From: Synechococcus sp. CBW1107
Lineage (GTDB): Bacteria; Cyanobacteriota; Cyanobacteriia; PCC-6307; Cyanobiaceae
Reading direction: 5' to 3'
Assembly (NCBI RefSeq): GCF_015841355.1
Contig: NZ_CP064908.1
Coordinates: forward strand, 1,984,001-2,048,000
DNA: 64,000 nucleotides
Shown here one piece after another: positions 23,244-32,862 of this stretch (positions are counted from its first letter, which is position 1; every line of letters begins with the position of its first letter). The notes below the pieces were generated by a model. It was not told the origin of the DNA and did no database searches. It saw only the letters and a list, made by a program, of their open reading frames with translations. The position numbers were made by a program, and so were the translations under genes.

Positions 23244-24002
23244 ATGAGTCAGCACGAGTCCGCCAGCAGGCCGGAAGAGGAGAACAGCGCCGAGGAGCCG
23301 ATCAGCCCGCCGGCCCCGGCCCGTCTGCTGCTGGTCGATGACGAGCCCGGTCTGCGCACGGCCGTGCAGGCCTACCTGGAGGACGAAGGCTTCGATGTCA
23401 CCACCGCCAACGACGGCGAGGAAGGCTGGACGGCAGCCCAGGAGCTGATCCCCGACCTGGTGATCAGCGACGTGATGATGCCTCGCCTTGATGGCTATGG
23501 ACTGCTCAGGCGACTGAGGGGCGACGAGCGGCTGGGGGGCACTCCGGTGATCTTTCTCACTGCCAAGGGGATGACGGCCGACCGGATCGAGGGCTTCCAG
23601 GCCGGGGTCGACGACTACATCCCCAAGCCCTTCGATCCCGATGAGCTGGTGGCCCGGGTTCGCAACGTGGTGCGCAGACAGGAGCGGCTGCTGGCCGAGG
23701 CGGCCCGCTACGCCGATGCCGACATCGGCCAGATGGCGCGGCAGATCACCGAGATCCGCTCCCTCCTGCAGCAGACGGGATCCCACAAGAGCGCCACACC
23801 GGCCACCCATTCCTTCACCCCCAGGGAGGCGAGCGTGCTCCAGCTGGTGGCCGAAGGACTGATGAACAAGGAGATCGCCCGCCGCCTGGAAACCTCGATC
23901 CGCAATGTCGAGAAGTACGTGAGCCGCCTGTTCACCAAGACCGGCACCACCAGCCGCACTGAACTGGTGCGCTACGCCCTCGAGAACGGCCTGGTTGACT
24001 GA
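23244..24002 (+). CDS. LuxR-family (NarL/Ycf29-like) response regulator
   Basis: A two-component response regulator of 252 residues. The receiver domain (about residues 30-150) has VDDEPG (acidic pair), the phosphoacceptor Asp in PDLVISDVMMPRLDG and the conserved Lys in IPKPFDP. A linker follows, then a LuxR-type helix-turn-helix (TPREASVLQLVAEGLMNKEIARRL). The pattern is like Ycf29 of algae and cyanobacteria. An acidic Ser/Glu-rich N-terminus of about 27 residues precedes the receiver. No histidine kinase is adjacent, so the signal is unknown. Confidence 0.93.
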   Translation: MSQHESASRPEEENSAEEPISPPAPARLLLVDDEPGLRTAVQAYLEDEGFDVTTANDGEEGWTAAQELIPDLVISDVMMPRLDGYGLLRRLRGDERLGGTPVIFLTAKGMTADRIEGFQAGVDDYIPKPFDPDELVARVRNVVRRQERLLAEAARYADADIGQMARQITEIRSLLQQTGSHKSATPATHSFTPREASVLQLVAEGLMNKEIARRLETSIRNVEKYVSRLFTKTGTTSRTELVRYALENGLVD

Positions 24003-25083
24003 CGGGCCACCTGGGGACCCCGTCCTGACGGGTTGGTTGCCGGCCCGACTCAACCAGGGCTGGACCTACCGCGACCGGGTCGGCCCCTCCGAGCGCGGGC
24101 ACTGGCTGAGTGCGTTCTATGCGGCCCGCTACCGGCATTCCGATCGGGAGGCGTGGATGCGGCGGCTGGAGGCCGGCGAGATCAGGTGCAACGGCGAGGC
24201 GCTCCGGGCTGATCGACCACTGGCCGAGGGTGATCGCCTGGCCTGGCGTCGGCCCCCCTGGCTGGAGGAGGCTGTACCGGCAAGCTGGCCGGTCGTGTTC
24301 GACGATGGCGATCTGTATGTGATCGACAAGCCCAGCGGCCTGCCGGTTCTGCCGGGCGGCGGCTGGCTGGAGCACACCGTGCTGCACCTCCTGGAGCGCC
24401 GCTTCGCTCAGGCCGGCAGCGGGGGCCTGGCCCATGGCGGTGTGCCGAGGCCGGTGCACCGGCTCGGCCGGCACACCTCCGGTCTGCTGGTCTGTGCCCG
24501 TTCTCCCCGGCTGCGGTCCTGGCTGAGCGCCCTGCTGCGCGAGAGCACGGCAGACACCCTGCGCGTGGTTGGGGGCGAGATCCGCAGTGATCACGACCAG
24601 GGCCGACCGCGCGACTGGCCTTGCCGGAGCTGCCTCAAGACCTACAGGGCCCTGACGGCTCCCCTGCCCCTCGCCCTGGCCCCAGGAGAGTGCCTGGAGA
24701 TCACCACGCCGATCGGCCGTCGGCCCCATCCGCTCCTGGGCCAGATCTGGGCGACGCAGGAGTCAGCGGGCGGGGGCCGGTCGCTGCCGGCGATCAGTCG
24801 TCTCACCCTGCTGGAGCGGCGTGGTGATGCCAGCCTGGTGGCCGTGACGATCGGCACGGGTCGTCCGCATCAGATCCGGATCCATCTGGCCAGTGTGGGT
24901 GCCCCGTTGCTGGGGGATCCCCTCTTCCTTTCTGGTGGAGACGCCCATCCAGGCAGGCGGCCCGGCGACGGGGGCTATTGCCTCCATGCCCATCAGCTCA
25001 GACTGCCCCTGCCCGATGGTGGGGAGCTGGAGCTCGAGGCCCCATGCCCTGCCCGGTTGCGCCGCGAAGCGTTCAACCCCTGA
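23995..25083 (+). CDS. RluA-family pseudouridine synthase-like protein, catalytic Asp replaced by Gly
   Basis: A 362-residue RluA-type protein with an S4-like N-terminal RNA-binding part (about residues 55-85: GEIRCNGEALRADRPLAEGD), then DKPSGLPVLP and the active-site region HRLGRHTSGLL at residues 155-165, and RPHQIRIHLASVGAPLLGDPLF near the C-terminus. In RluA enzymes this site reads HRLDxxTSG and the Asp is the nucleophile; here codon 24466-24468 is GGC (Gly158). It may be inactive or use another residue. The TTG start at 23995 overlaps the response regulator by 8 bp. Confidence 0.85.
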   Translation: MTDGPPGDPVLTGWLPARLNQGWTYRDRVGPSERGHWLSAFYAARYRHSDREAWMRRLEAGEIRCNGEALRADRPLAEGDRLAWRRPPWLEEAVPASWPVVFDDGDLYVIDKPSGLPVLPGGGWLEHTVLHLLERRFAQAGSGGLAHGGVPRPVHRLGRHTSGLLVCARSPRLRSWLSALLRESTADTLRVVGGEIRSDHDQGRPRDWPCRSCLKTYRALTAPLPLALAPGECLEITTPIGRRPHPLLGQIWATQESAGGGRSLPAISRLTLLERRGDASLVAVTIGTGRPHQIRIHLASVGAPLLGDPLFLSGGDAHPGRRPGDGGYCLHAHQLRLPLPDGGELELEAPCPARLRREAFNP

Positions 25084-25110: not shown

Positions 25111-25740
25111 TCAGAAGCCTCCCCAGGTGGAGTTCCGGCTGTGGGTGCGCCCTCCCTGGCCGGTCCATTCGATCTGGGTGGATCCAGGCTGGCGCTCGAC
25201 GACACGCATGGTGGAACGTCCGCCCGGACCCGTGACGACCGTGGAACGATTGCCCTTGCCGTAGGTGGTTTCCCGGGTGGTGGTGCGACCCTGGCGATCG
25301 GTCCACTCGACCTCGGTGGAATCCGGTGAGCGCTCGGCGGAGCGGGTGACGGTGCGACCGCCGGGGCCGGTGATGGTGGTGTTGCCTTCCCCATCCCCGT
25401 AGGTGGAGGTCTGGGTGTAAGTGCGGCCCTGCCTGTCAGTCCACGTGGCTTCTGTGGAACCCGGTGTGCGCTCGGCGGAGCGGGTGACGGTGCGACCGCC
25501 GGGGCCGGTGATGGTGGTGTTGCCTTTGCCGCCCCCGTAGGTGGAGGTCTGGGTGTAGGTGCGGCCCTGGCGGTCGGTCCACCGCGCGTTGGTGGAGCCG
25601 GGCTGGCGCACGGCGGAGCGGGTGATGGTGCGACCGCCGCGGCCGGTGATGGTGGTGTCGGCCCTGGCGGCGGTGGAGTCGAGGGGAACCAGGAGGGCTG
25701 TTGCTCCGAGGGCGGCGAGGGTCAGAAGGAGGCGTTTCAT
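25111..25740 (-). CDS. Secreted protein made of four 46-residue repeats
   Basis: A 209-residue protein with a signal peptide (MKRLLLTLAALGATALLVP..., cleavage near ARA at residue 25-27) and then four tandem repeats: residues 29-74, 75-120, 121-166 and 167-209. Each unit begins T(T/V)(I/V)TGxGGR, contains (R/E)xPxST and W T DRQGRT, and ends with TYG plus Gly/Lys/Asn. The Thr/Gly/Arg-rich, beta-strand-like pattern resembles surface or extracellular matrix repeats rather than an enzyme. I recognise no family. The ATG at 25740 was chosen because the signal peptide follows it directly. Confidence 0.8.
   Translation of the reverse strand: MKRLLLTLAALGATALLVPLDSTAARADTTITGRGGRTITRSAVRQPGSTNARWTDRQGRTYTQTSTYGGGKGNTTITGPGGRTVTRSAERTPGSTEATWTDRQGRTYTQTSTYGDGEGNTTITGPGGRTVTRSAERSPDSTEVEWTDRQGRTTTRETTYGKGNRSTVVTGPGGRSTMRVVERQPGSTQIEWTGQGGRTHSRNSTWGGF
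25114..25656 (-). repeat. Four in-frame tandem repeats, 138-bp period
   Basis: Units lie at 25519-25656, 25381-25518, 25243-25380 and 25114-25242 (the last slightly short). The period is exactly 138 bp, matching 46 codons. Long stretches of the first three units are identical: for example, the segment starting at 25331 recurs at 25469 with at least 55 matching bases. That points to recent duplication or ongoing gene conversion. Confidence 0.9.
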
Positions 25741-25896
25741 TGGAAGAGTTGCAATACGGCGTGAGTGAGCCTCAAGTATCCCGCTGGTGGATGAATGAGC
25801 CATGTCCGGTGAGGGGGGAACTGTGACTGGATGCACCTTCGGGGCCGGAAGGACCCTGGACCCTGGCCGGAGCGGACGTCTGAGTCCTGGCTGCGC

Positions 25897-26766
25897 TCAG
25901 CGCGGATGGGTGCGCATCAGCCGCTGCACTTCTCCGGCGTGATAGCTGCTGCGGGTGAGTGGTGAACTGACCACCTGCAGGAACCCCAGGCGCCTTTCCC
26001 CTTCGTGGCGGAAGTGATCGAACCGGTCGGGGGTCACGAACCGCTGAACGGCCAGATGCTTCGCTCCCGGGGAGAGGTACTGACCGATCGTCACGATGTC
26101 CACGTCCTGAGCTCGCAGATCCGCCATCACCTCCAGCACTTCGCTGTCGGTTTCACCCAGGCCCACCATGAGCCCCGATTTGGTGTAGGTCCTTGGCCAG
26201 TCCTGGTGGACCCGGCGCAGAAGCTCCAGGGAGCGCGGGTAGAGGCCCTGAGGCCGAACCTGCCGGTACAGCCGCGGCACCGTTTCGATGTTGTGGTTGA
26301 GCACGTCCGGAGCCCCCGCCATGACGGCGGCCAGGGCGTCCCAGTTCCCGCAGAGATCCGGAATCAGCAGCTCGATCGTTGTGCCGGCGGAGCGACGACG
26401 CACCTCTTCCATGCAGGCCACGAACTGGCTGGCGCCCCCGTCCTCGAGGTCATCGCGGTTCACCGAGGTGATGACCACGTGGGAGAGGCCCATCCGGGCC
26501 ACCGCCTCCCCCAGCCGCTCCGGCTCGCTGGGGTCGAGGGCCCTCACGCTCCTGTCGAAGTCGATGTCGCAGTAGGGACAGGCCCGGGTGCAGCCCGGAC
26601 CCATGATCAGAAAGGTGGCGGTGCCCCCGGCGAAGCATTCGCCGATGTTCGGACAGCTGGCCTCCTGGCAGACGGTGTTGAGCTTCAGGTCCACCAGCAG
26701 GTCGGCCACCGCGCCGATCCGCTCACGCTGCGGCGCCTTGACCCGTAACCAGTCGGGTTTGAGCAT
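25897..26766 (-). CDS. lipA: Lipoyl synthase
   Basis: Radical SAM enzyme that inserts two sulfurs into octanoyl-protein to form lipoate. The product from ATG 26766 is 289 residues, typical for LipA. The auxiliary cluster motif [12 protein letters not shown] and the radical SAM motif CTRACPYC are both complete, followed by [16 protein letters not shown]. An ATG at 26781 would add five residues; the longer frame upstream enters the tRNA-Pro region and is not coding. Cyanobacteria often have two LipA copies. Confidence 0.95.
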
Positions 26767-26865
26767 GGCGTCCGGAGCCATCGCGGCAGGGCTGCTGGAT
26801 CCAGACTTTAGAAACCCCTCTTCCGCCCGGATCAGGCGACGGTCATCCCCTAAAGTCACTTCTGG

Positions 26866-26939
26866 CGGGATGTGGCGCAGCTTGGTAGCGCACTTCGTTC
26901 GGGACGAAGGGGCCGCAGGTTCGAATCCTGTCATCCCGA
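26866..26939 (+). tRNA. tRNA-Pro (anticodon CGG)
   Basis: A 74-nt cloverleaf without encoded CCA. The acceptor stem CGGGATG pairs with CATCCCG at 26932-26938, with A as discriminator. The anticodon stem CTTCG/CGAAG encloses the loop TTCGGGA, giving anticodon CGG, and the T arm reads GCAGGTTCGAATCCTGT. CGG decodes the proline codon CCG, consistent with the high GC of the genome. Confidence 0.95.
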
Positions 26940-30104: not shown

Positions 30105-30558
30105 CGCTCCTGATCGATGTCGGCCCCAGGCTCAGGTGCCGGGACCCATGGGGACAGTTTGCCCAGCGGGCTTCGGGTCCGTAAAAAATGATGCTGAATG
30201 TATCCCCAAATCCTTCGGGAATTGGATAAAGAAAGTGCAGCATCGCGCTGCCGATGAGTGATAGGGAGCTTGGGGCAGAGCCCTGTTCCAGACAGGGGTG
30301 GTGCCGGATTGAACCTTTGTTACTTACCCCCCAGAGGGCTTGAAACTCGCCCTTATACTTCCGCCAGCGGTCCCCTCATCGGGGCCCCAGCTCCAGTGCT
30401 GGCAGCGGCTTTCGGCCTTTTTCGAAGCCACTCCGCACTGGTGCCCATGGTTCCAAGGGCCTCGGCCCGCGGAACCGTGAGGCCCACCGGCCTGGCCTTT
30501 CGGCCCGGTCCGGAGGGGTGGACCTCCACCTCGACTCCGTCCCTCGAGGAACGTCTCG
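30105..30558 (+). promoter_or_regulatory. psaA upstream region and 5' leader
   Basis: The 454-bp gap between the divergent unknown gene and psaA holds no gene. The part near 30180-30245 is AT-rich (for example GTAAAAAATGATGC), and a TATACT at 30354-30359 is a candidate -10, without a clear -35 at the usual spacing. A GC-rich leader of about 200 nt would follow, with inverted repeats such as GGTGGACCTCCACC at 30517-30530. Light-dependent control of psaAB is established in cyanobacteria; which element does it here is unknown. Confidence 0.6.
30517..30530 (+). promoter_or_regulatory. GGTGGA/TCCACC inverted repeat in psaA leader
   Basis: GGTGGA and TCCACC are perfect 6-bp arms around CC. In RNA this could form a hairpin about 30 nt before the psaA ATG, or it could be a protein-binding palindrome in DNA. 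Confidence 0.4.
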
Positions 30559-30559
30559 A
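30544..30559 (+). promoter_or_regulatory. Hairpin over the psaA ribosome-binding site
   Basis: TCGAG (30544-30548) pairs with CTCGA (30555-30559) around GAACGT. The stem takes up part of the GAGGA Shine-Dalgarno sequence (30546-30550) and the A of the psaA ATG. It could tune translation initiation. The stem is only 5 bp. Confidence 0.4.
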
Positions 30560-32862
30560 TGACCATCAGCCCACCAGAGCGTGGGAAAAAGGCGAAGGCC
30601 CAGGTCGACCAGGTGAACAACCCGGCCACCTTCGAACTGTTCGGCAAGCCCGGCCATTTCGACCGCACCCTCGCCAAAGGTCCCAAAACCACCACCTGGG
30701 TTTGGAACCTCCACGCCAACGCTCACGACTTCGACAGCCACACGAGCGATCTCGAAGAGGTCTCCCGGAAGATCTTCAGCGCTCACTTCGGCCACCTGGC
30801 CGTCATCTTCATCTGGCTGAGCGGCGCCTTCTACCACGGTGCCCGCTTCTCCAACTACACCGGCTGGCTGGCCGACCCCCTGCACGTCAAACCCAGTGCC
30901 CAGGTGGTCTGGCCCATCTTCGGCCAGGAAATTCTCAACGGCGATGTGGGTGCCGGCTTCCACGGCATCCAGATCACCTCAGGCCTCTTCCATGTCTGGA
31001 GAGCCTGGGGCTTCACCAGTGAGTTCCAGCTGCTCTGCACCGCCATCGGTGCCCTGGTGATGGCTGGCCTGATGCTGAATGCCGGCGTCTTCCACTATCA
31101 CAAGGCAGCTCCCAAGCTCGAGTGGTTCCAGAACGTTGAGTCCATGCTCAACCACCACCTGGCTGGCCTCCTCGGCCTGGGCTCCCTCTCCTGGACCGGG
31201 CACCTGCTGCACGTGTCCCTGCCCACCACTCAGTTGATGGATGCCATCGACGCCGGCAAGCCGCTGGTGCTCGACGGCAAGACCATCGCTTCGGTGGCGG
31301 ACATCCCCCTGCCCCATGAATTCCTGAACCTGGATCTGCTGACCCAGTTGTTCCCTGGATTCGGAGCGGGTCTCTCAGCCTTCTTCACCGGCAACTGGGC
31401 CGCCTACAGCGACTTCCTCACCTTCAAGGGTGGGCTGAATCCTGTCACCGGCAGCCTCTGGATGACCGACATCGCCCATCACCACCTGGCGATCGCGGTC
31501 CTGTTCATCGTCGCCGGACATCAATACCGCACCAACTGGGGTATTGGTCACAGCATCAAGGAGATTCTCGAAGGCCAGAAGGGTGATCCCCTGCTGTTCC
31601 CGGCTCCGAAGGGTCACGATGGCCTGTTCGAGTTCATGACCACCTCCTGGCATGCCCAGTTGGCCGTGAACCTGGCGTTGCTCGGTTCGCTGAGCATCAT
31701 TGTGGCGCATCACATGTATGCGATGCCGCCCTATCCCTACATCGGTATCGACTACCCAACGCAGCTGTCGATCTTCACGCACCACATGTGGATCGGCGGT
31801 TTCATCATCGTTGGCGCCGGTGCCCACGCGGCCATCGCGCTCATCCGCGATTACGACCCTGCCCAGCATGTTGACAACGTGCTGGATCGGGTCCTCAAAG
31901 CCCGTGATGCCCTGATCAGCCACCTCAACTGGGTGTGCATCTGGCTTGGCTTCCACAGCTTCGGCCTCTACATCCACAACGACACCATGCGTGCCCTGGG
32001 ACGTCCCCAGGACATGTTCAGTGACACCGCCATTCAGCTGAAGCCCGTTTTCGCTCAGTGGATTCAGGGTCTGCACGCCGCTGCAGCCGGTTCCACCGCA
32101 CCGAATGCTCTGGCCGGTGTGAGCGAAGTGTTCAACGGTGCCGTCGTCGCCGTCGGCGGCAAGGTGGCTGCCGGTCCGATCCCCCTGGGAACGGCCGACT
32201 TCATGGTCCACCACATCCACGCCTTCACGATCCACGTCACCGTGCTGATCCTGCTGAAGGGTGTCCTCTACAGCCGCAGTTCCAGGCTGATCCCCGACAA
32301 GGCCAACCTGGGCTTCCGCTTCCCCTGCGACGGCCCCGGCCGTGGCGGTACCTGCCAGGTGTCGGCCTGGGACCACGTGTTCCTCGGCCTCTTCTGGATG
32401 TACAACTCCCTGTCCATCGTGATCTTCCACTTCAGCTGGAAGATGCAGAGCGATGTCTGGGGAACCGTGAATGCGGACGGCAGCGTCCAGCACATCACGA
32501 ATGGGAATTTCGCGCAGAGCGCCATCACCATCAATGGCTGGCTGCGTGATTTCCTCTGGGCTCAGGCCGCACAGGTGATCAACAGCTACGGCTCCTCCTC
32601 CAGTGCTTACGGCCTGATGTTCCTCGGCGCCCACTTCGTCTGGGCCTTCAGCCTGATGTTCCTCTTCAGTGGCCGCGGTTACTGGCAGGAGCTCATCGAG
32701 TCCATTGTCTGGGCTCACAACAAGCTGAAGGTGGCACCCGCCATCCAGCCCCGTGCGCTGAGCATCACCCAGGGCCGTGCCGTAGGCGTTGCCCACTATC
32801 TGCTGGGAGGTATCGCTACCACCTGGTCCTTTTTCCTGGCCCGACTCGTCGCGGTCGGCTGA
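30559..32862 (+). CDS. psaA: Photosystem I P700 apoprotein A1
   Basis: Core reaction-centre subunit of PSI in the thylakoid membrane, binding P700, antenna chlorophylls, phylloquinone and half of the Fx cluster. The 767-residue product is full length, with eleven expected transmembrane helices and many His ligands. The Fx motif [12 protein letters not shown] carries both cysteines. The start [14 protein letters not shown] is standard for cyanobacterial PsaA, with GAGGA 8 nt upstream. psaB follows after 21 bp. Confidence 0.99.

Follow-up and report, generated by a model that had tools for sequence, protein, structure and literature searches.

MORN repeats are about 23 residues long and form beta-hairpins that are stacked into a long sheet, and YD repeats place a D-x-x-G-R-like turn between strands. 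Other described antiparallel meanders include the single-layer beta-sheet of OspA, which is free-standing, and the long meanders of the VDAC and porin barrels. Among regulatory systems, the cpxRA-cpxP layout has cpxP, which encodes a helical LTxxQ protein, divergent from the two-component pair. Here, we compare with these systems an exported repeat protein encoded in a 64,000-nucleotide stretch of a cyanobacterial chromosome (the window). What is new is an uncatalogued repeat family; its architecture is of an already known kind. The gene and its parts are as follows:

25111..25740, minus strand: gene of the exported repeat protein (209 aa; ATG at 25740, stop at 25113-25111)
25660..25740, minus strand: signal peptide, residues 1 to 27 (judged by eye; cut expected after ARA)
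25519..25656, minus strand: 46-aa unit 1 (two 23-aa hairpins)
25381..25518, minus strand: 46-aa unit 2
25243..25380, minus strand: 46-aa unit 3
25114..25242, minus strand: unit 4 (43 aa, the most diverged)

A first-pass annotation of the window, made from the sequence alone, had given the correct coordinates, strand, and reading frame, and its description of an exported protein is borne out by eye: the N terminus reads as a Sec-type signal peptide (MKRLLLTLAALGATALLVPLDSTAARA, with the cut before D). The mature part (182 aa) consists of one residue followed by four units of 46, the last having 43. With a mass of 19.5 kDa, a pI of 11.22, and a GRAVY of −1.25, it is strongly basic and hydrophilic. 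The gene is the only match in its own genome, a single contig of 3.2 Mb. Between the window gene and its orthologue in G055, a genome of another genus, dN was 0.238 and dS was 0.600 (dN/dS of about 0.4), and this excess of dS over dN suggests purifying selection on the repeat gene.

The exact 138-bp period reported in that annotation was confirmed: DNA identity at a lag of 138 was 0.751, compared with at most 0.457 in codon shuffles (n = 1,000) at lags of 69, 138, 207, and 276, and Tandem Repeats Finder gave a period of 138 with 2.8 copies (score 546). There are indeed four units of 46 residues, but calling them near-identical was too strong, as protein identity between units is 38/46, 30/46, 34/46, and 22/44 (the 44 counts the stop codon), or 51 to 83% overall. 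In DNA, units 1 and 2 agree at 116/138 positions, units 1 and 3 at 105/138, and units 2 and 3 at 108/138 (76 to 84%); unit 4 agrees with units 1 to 3 at 78 to 85 of 132 positions, stop codon included (59 to 64%). The long identical stretches described earlier are present, the longest run common to neighbouring units being 59 bp. Recent duplication or gene conversion had been read from them. In the window, dS between units 1 to 3 is about 0.28 to 0.35, and the duplications are therefore not very recent; homogenisation does appear recent in the G055 orthologue (L003, 1501-2118). The DNA of units 1 to 3 of that orthologue is 95 to 97% identical, which points to concerted evolution in the G055 lineage. 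Against the 76 to 84% seen in the window, this suggests that the two lineages were homogenised at different times.

An assembly artefact, which had been named as what would overturn this description, is unlikely, because the genome is a single contig, the units differ from each other, and the separately assembled G055 holds a 206-aa, four-unit orthologue with 67% identity. Repeat number differs between species, with four units in the window, four in G055, and about 1.5 in a third genome, G058. The 46-residue repeat stands as a doubled, higher-order unit, but the basic unit is, by the following measures, 23 residues. Self-similarity in the three cyanobacterial proteins is best at a lag of 46 and second best at 23, and motif spacings across 14 non-cyanobacterial loci are exactly 23 in 34 of 44 cases. 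The half period is absent from the DNA, where identity at lag 69 (0.409) lies inside the shuffle range and only 138 and 276 show.

Structure prediction, which had been proposed earlier for one repeat, gave 16 strands for the mature protein both with and without an alignment. AlphaFold2 models of the mature protein with 11 relatives had a mean pLDDT of 83.1 (pTM 0.63), and models made without an alignment had nearly the same strand pattern (pLDDT 75.9, pTM 0.49). The predicted pattern is a nine-residue strand, a two-residue turn, a seven-residue strand, and a five-residue loop, with a period of 23 residues. The loops fall on G-P-G-G-R and D-R-Q-G-R, which coincide with the two blocks picked out in the first-pass annotation (W-T-DRQGRT and ITGPGGRT). 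The predicted fold is thus a 16-strand antiparallel meander of hairpins; at pTM values of 0.63 and 0.49, the models leave it uncertain how the sheet curves as a whole. In such a fold, 23-residue beta-hairpins would lie edge to edge in one continuous antiparallel sheet, the alternating sequence of neighbouring hairpins would produce the 46-residue period, and repeat number would set the length of the protein.

Foldseek searches against the PDB and viral models returned no match at an E value of 0.001 or better; the best PDB rows were OspA, with VDAC and MORN1 lower. OspA resembles the model as a free-standing antiparallel meander, but its TM-scores were 0.15 to 0.29 with an E value of 0.006 at best, and it is without the 23-residue repeat sequence of this protein. 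The likeness to MORN proteins comes from rows for Trypanosoma brucei MORN1 (6t68 and 6t4r; TM 0.24 to 0.29, E 0.06 to 0.08) and for viral MORN proteins, all MORN rows having a TM of ≤0.32. In contrast to MORN proteins, the window protein lacks, by eye, the MORN sequence signature, and Pfam scans gave no MORN family up to an E value of 10 for the window protein or 5 for 12 family members. YD/RHS shells share the D-x-x-G-R-like turn between strands. In a second structural comparison, teneurin 2 aligned over 162 residues (rmsd 3.9, Z 8.8), RhsA aligned over 164 residues (rmsd 3.6, Z 7.3), and three rows of Salmonella Rhs had Z values of 8.0 to 8.5 (rmsd 5.0 to 13.8), all of them (Z 7.3 to 8.8) within the range that the tool calls a common arrangement for repeats. 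Unlike these shells, the window protein is small, exported, and without further domains; the RHS_repeat profile matched one of the 12 family members, at an E value of 0.83, and left the window protein unmatched. The best value in the second comparison belonged to the long antiparallel meander of VDAC/porin barrels (Z 14.2, rmsd 5.4, 182 residues). An outer-membrane barrel was nevertheless set aside on composition (GRAVY −1.25, pI 11.2), and the less polar strand face, unlike that of these barrels, has many Arg residues. Since the composition is so strongly hydrophilic, a barrel in the membrane is unlikely, and we take the resemblance to VDAC and porins as a common arrangement.

On balance, we lean toward a protein of the cell envelope or extracellular matrix that serves as a structural scaffold or a binder and whose Arg/aromatic face and net positive charge might suit anionic polymers. 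The other face could point to a surface protein that binds a ligand, such as ice, a mineral, or a polysaccharide, through a flat, Thr-lined surface, with repeat number tuning avidity. Positions 4, 10, and 12 of the 23-residue register are Thr in 7/7, 6/7, and 6/7 of the full halves of the window protein (the last, incomplete half was left out), and strand alternation is expected to put them on one face, with Ile/Trp/Val, Arg, and Tyr on the other. However, Thr-rich repeats are common in exported proteins, the face was assigned from strand parity and not from measured coordinates, and the modeled sheet is probably curved; we consider such a Thr-face binder very improbable.

We define the family here by a 23-residue TxTGPxGxTxxR hairpin repeat. 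It is, on comparison of sequences, a real and uncatalogued repeat family with members in Pseudomonadota and Acidobacteriota besides cyanobacteria, because a profile from outside the cyanobacteria retrieves the window gene and two other cyanobacterial genes. This profile was built solely from Pseudomonadota and Acidobacteriota proteins with the 23-aa repeat (11 rows). Against 300 cyanobacterial genomes, it matched the window protein best (E = 2e-16), followed by G055 (5e-12) and G058 (4.5e-6). Four of the 300 passed an E value of 0.01; the fourth, G152 (E = 0.009), is a marginal match whose frame reads like an ATP-binding protein. Profile-profile comparison agreed, with an E value of 1.1e-9 (probability 96.4). 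A 23-residue profile from 50 non-cyanobacterial repeats scored the window protein at 21.5 bits and that of G055 at 20.4 bits, scores reached by 0 of 500 shuffles of each. The same profile did not list the G058 protein, yet listed 93 of 500 of its shuffles; the full profile does find G058.

No Pfam or NCBIfam model matched the window protein at its cut-off, the best PHROGs match had an E value of 0.027, and PDB sequence searches gave nothing under 0.04. A Spartan zinc-binding match (E = 0.001; 19.5 bits against a cut-off of 27) covered one repeat stretch and was taken as composition. When the 12 family members were searched against Pfam, the best E values were 4.8e-4, again for the Spartan zinc-binding model, and 6.9e-4 for DUF7406 (two members). 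The earlier statement that no family was recognised therefore holds for Pfam, NCBIfam, PHROGs, and PDB sequences, none of which assigned the window protein to the kind of well-described repeat family that would have spoken against it, but the protein does belong to an uncatalogued family with relatives in Pseudomonadota and Acidobacteriota. In those parts of the literature that were available, searches found no work on the hairpin-repeat family and no match for the motif TVTGPNG or for VTGPNG with secreted repeat. A lone odd protein thus becomes a definable repeat family that is not in the searched copies of Pfam, NCBIfam, and PHROGs.

Within the cyanobacteria, the gene was found in one of nine genomes of the genus of the window genome (its own) and in one of four of the genus of G055 (G055 itself). 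Besides the G055 orthologue, a search of 300 genomes of the taxonomic family gave a 42% match in G058 over residues 5 to 87, equal to one unit and about a half. A unit profile run against 400 genomes of this taxonomic family passed an E value of 0.01 in 23, with a strong match in three and weak matches in the other 20 (E of 1.7e-4 or worse). When all 33 weak matches (13 from the protein search and 20 from the unit profile) were read on the matched strand, none showed the repeat. One of them, L048 (genome G326), has a single unit-like stretch, which was rejected because a long, unrelated open reading frame runs across it in a different frame. Several weak matches resemble one common enzyme end, which by our own reading is that of PEP carboxylase. 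Across 386 genomes of the phylum, a sparse sample evidently without G055 and G058, the unit profile matched strongly only in the window genome.

Outside the cyanobacteria, a plasmid search recovered a hypothetical protein of Ideonella dechloratans that is 39.8% identical over 108 query residues and is made of 23-residue repeats. When genome contigs were scanned with this Ideonella protein as the query, 17 loci were recovered, spread over Burkholderiales, Hydrogenophilales, other Pseudomonadota, Acidobacteriota, and one Pirellulales, of which the last were weak; with the window protein as the query, a relative was confirmed in 0 of 413 stretches. Phage and plasmid origins were both rejected: the phage collection gave no match, none of six pattern-matching stretches in viral contigs was confirmed, and the Ideonella record is the sole plasmid match.

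Together with the Ideonella plasmid locus, the 17 contig loci make up 18 non-cyanobacterial loci, which are not independent (four are from Ideonella, two are very similar acidobacterial loci, and all stem from one pair-bearing query). At 13 of the 18, the surroundings of the repeat gene include relatives of both a response regulator and a histidine kinase; at 12 of these 13, the two are encoded on the other strand, the regulator facing the repeat gene. The pair is absent at five loci—L061, L063, L065, L073, and L074—of which L073 has little upstream sequence. A fatty-acid hydroxylase follows the repeat gene at nine loci (L057 to L060, L062, L064, L067, L068, and L071), that of L068 being PF04116 and weakly OlsE-like, and a Cys-rich-repeat protein follows it at five (L061, L062, L064, L067, and L068; PF00839 in L068). 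It is possible that the OmpR/EnvZ-like pair and the hydroxylase form an envelope-lipid regulon. Alignment of the intergenic stretches of 11 non-cyanobacterial loci showed resemblances among related Burkholderiales and established no operator common to all.

This arrangement recalls CpxRA-CpxP, in that the gene of a small exported protein is, in the relatives, transcribed away from those of a histidine kinase and a response regulator of the OmpR type. The repeat protein might then be a CpxP-like periplasmic accessory that feeds back on the two-component sensor or binds misfolded envelope proteins. The divergent placement at 12 loci (the repeat gene is same-strand downstream at one, L070) agrees with such a role, as does a later small ORF at L070 that resembles CpxP/Spy by reading, with no match in Pfam or NCBIfam. 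CpxP, however, is helical, whereas the window protein is predicted to be all beta and repetitive; the pair at L062 scores best in NCBIfam as OmpR and EnvZ, both below the cut-offs; and the cyanobacterial copies are without the pair in the neighbourhoods read, namely, the window, G055, and G058 loci. We therefore regard a CpxP-like accessory as unlikely and keep to the envelope or matrix scaffold or binder, which in Pseudomonadota and Acidobacteriota may be an output of an envelope-sensing pair resembling OmpR/EnvZ. For the relatives only, the linkage to the sensor makes a good lead; such regulation should not be transferred to the cyanobacteria, since the pair was not seen there and the regulator in the window, native to the genus, differs in type. 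The models give a fold to test, and the frequent sensor pair and lipid hydroxylase in Betaproteobacteria that are harmless and culturable offer a handle on the role.

In the window, the repeat gene lies among the following features:

23244..24002, plus strand: response regulator with a LuxR-type DNA-binding domain (native to the genus; left edge of the tract)
23995..25083, plus strand: rlu, RluA-family pseudouridine synthase, convergent neighbour (within the imported tract)
25789..25807, minus strand: core of an upstream element of 27 nt (81% identity to G055; pairwise E = 0.001)
25897..26934, minus strand: lipA, lipoyl synthase, longest ORF (within the imported tract; name from sequence reading)
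26866..26939, plus strand: tRNA-Pro (right edge of the tract)

The lipA ORF runs into the tRNA gene, and so its true start is probably further in. The 27-nt element is placed almost equally far from the ATG in the window and in G055 (about 74 nt upstream in L003), its core occurs once in the window at up to two mismatches, and the upstream DNA otherwise hardly aligns between the two; the element is a possible promoter or operator.

In eight congeners, no more than about 30 bases separate the matched end of rlu from that of lipA; the window has the repeat gene at this point. The window rlu protein is 62 to 65% identical to those of the congeners, compared with 77 to 97% among the congeners. A tree built from 30 rlu proteins joins the window sequence to that of G055 with support of 100/100; a single clade for the window genus was rejected (p-AU = 0.017), as was a clade of G055 with its congener G113, which has a long branch (p-AU = 0.0024). 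These clades were fixed by genus labels, with the identities already known before the test. The response regulator, which shares an overlap with the rlu frame provided that the TTG start is correct, gives a tree in agreement with the genera. In a sliding comparison that left the repeat gene out, identity to the congeners falls at about 23,950 to 24,000 and is regained next to tRNA-Pro, at about 26,950. Mean identity of lipA to the congeners is 85.8% versus 93.8% among them; within lipA, a single 150-bp step of the comparison (26497) is free of the drop. Import of rlu and the repeat gene alone was rejected, as lipA is also diverged and the right edge lies near tRNA-Pro.

Given the rlu tree, the drop in identity, and the divergence of lipA against a regulator that follows the genera, we read a tract of about 3 kb (rlu, the repeat gene, and lipA) as having been recombined in from outside the genus sample, and the cyanobacterium would have received its copy on this tract. 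The rlu and repeat genes of G055 are related to those of the window and unlike those of G055's own genus. Because the lipA of the window is no nearer to that of G055 (85%) than to those of five congeners (86 to 87%), the donor is not pinned to G055 and the tract could be a mosaic. This is a clear case in which a tract with the gene of an accessory exported protein has taken the place of a cyanobacterial housekeeping locus.

A selfish or neutral passenger of this rlu/lipA allele replacement, with no role in this species, would match both the rarity of the gene (1/9 and 1/4 in the two genera, strong matches in 3/400 of the taxonomic family) and its place between convergent genes whose ends nearly touch in eight congeners. 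Yet the frame has been kept in two genera at the same four-unit length and a dN/dS of about 0.4, and the signal peptide looks intact in both the window and G055, all of which make a mere passenger improbable, more so than a CpxP-like accessory. Returning to the scaffold or binder, a wider picture can be sketched, which we hold to be rather doubtful: the hairpin-array family may be a regulated envelope element, in Pseudomonadota and Acidobacteriota the dedicated output of a single OmpR/EnvZ-like sensor and often accompanied by a membrane-lipid hydroxylase, which spreads among cyanobacteria by homologous replacement of neighbouring housekeeping genes, with units doubled to 46 residues, homogenised, and quickly tuned in length. 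Further along the window, a psaA leader RNA (Rfam RF01752), which marks the host as a cyanobacterium, lies at 30352-30562, upstream of a psaA-like ORF.
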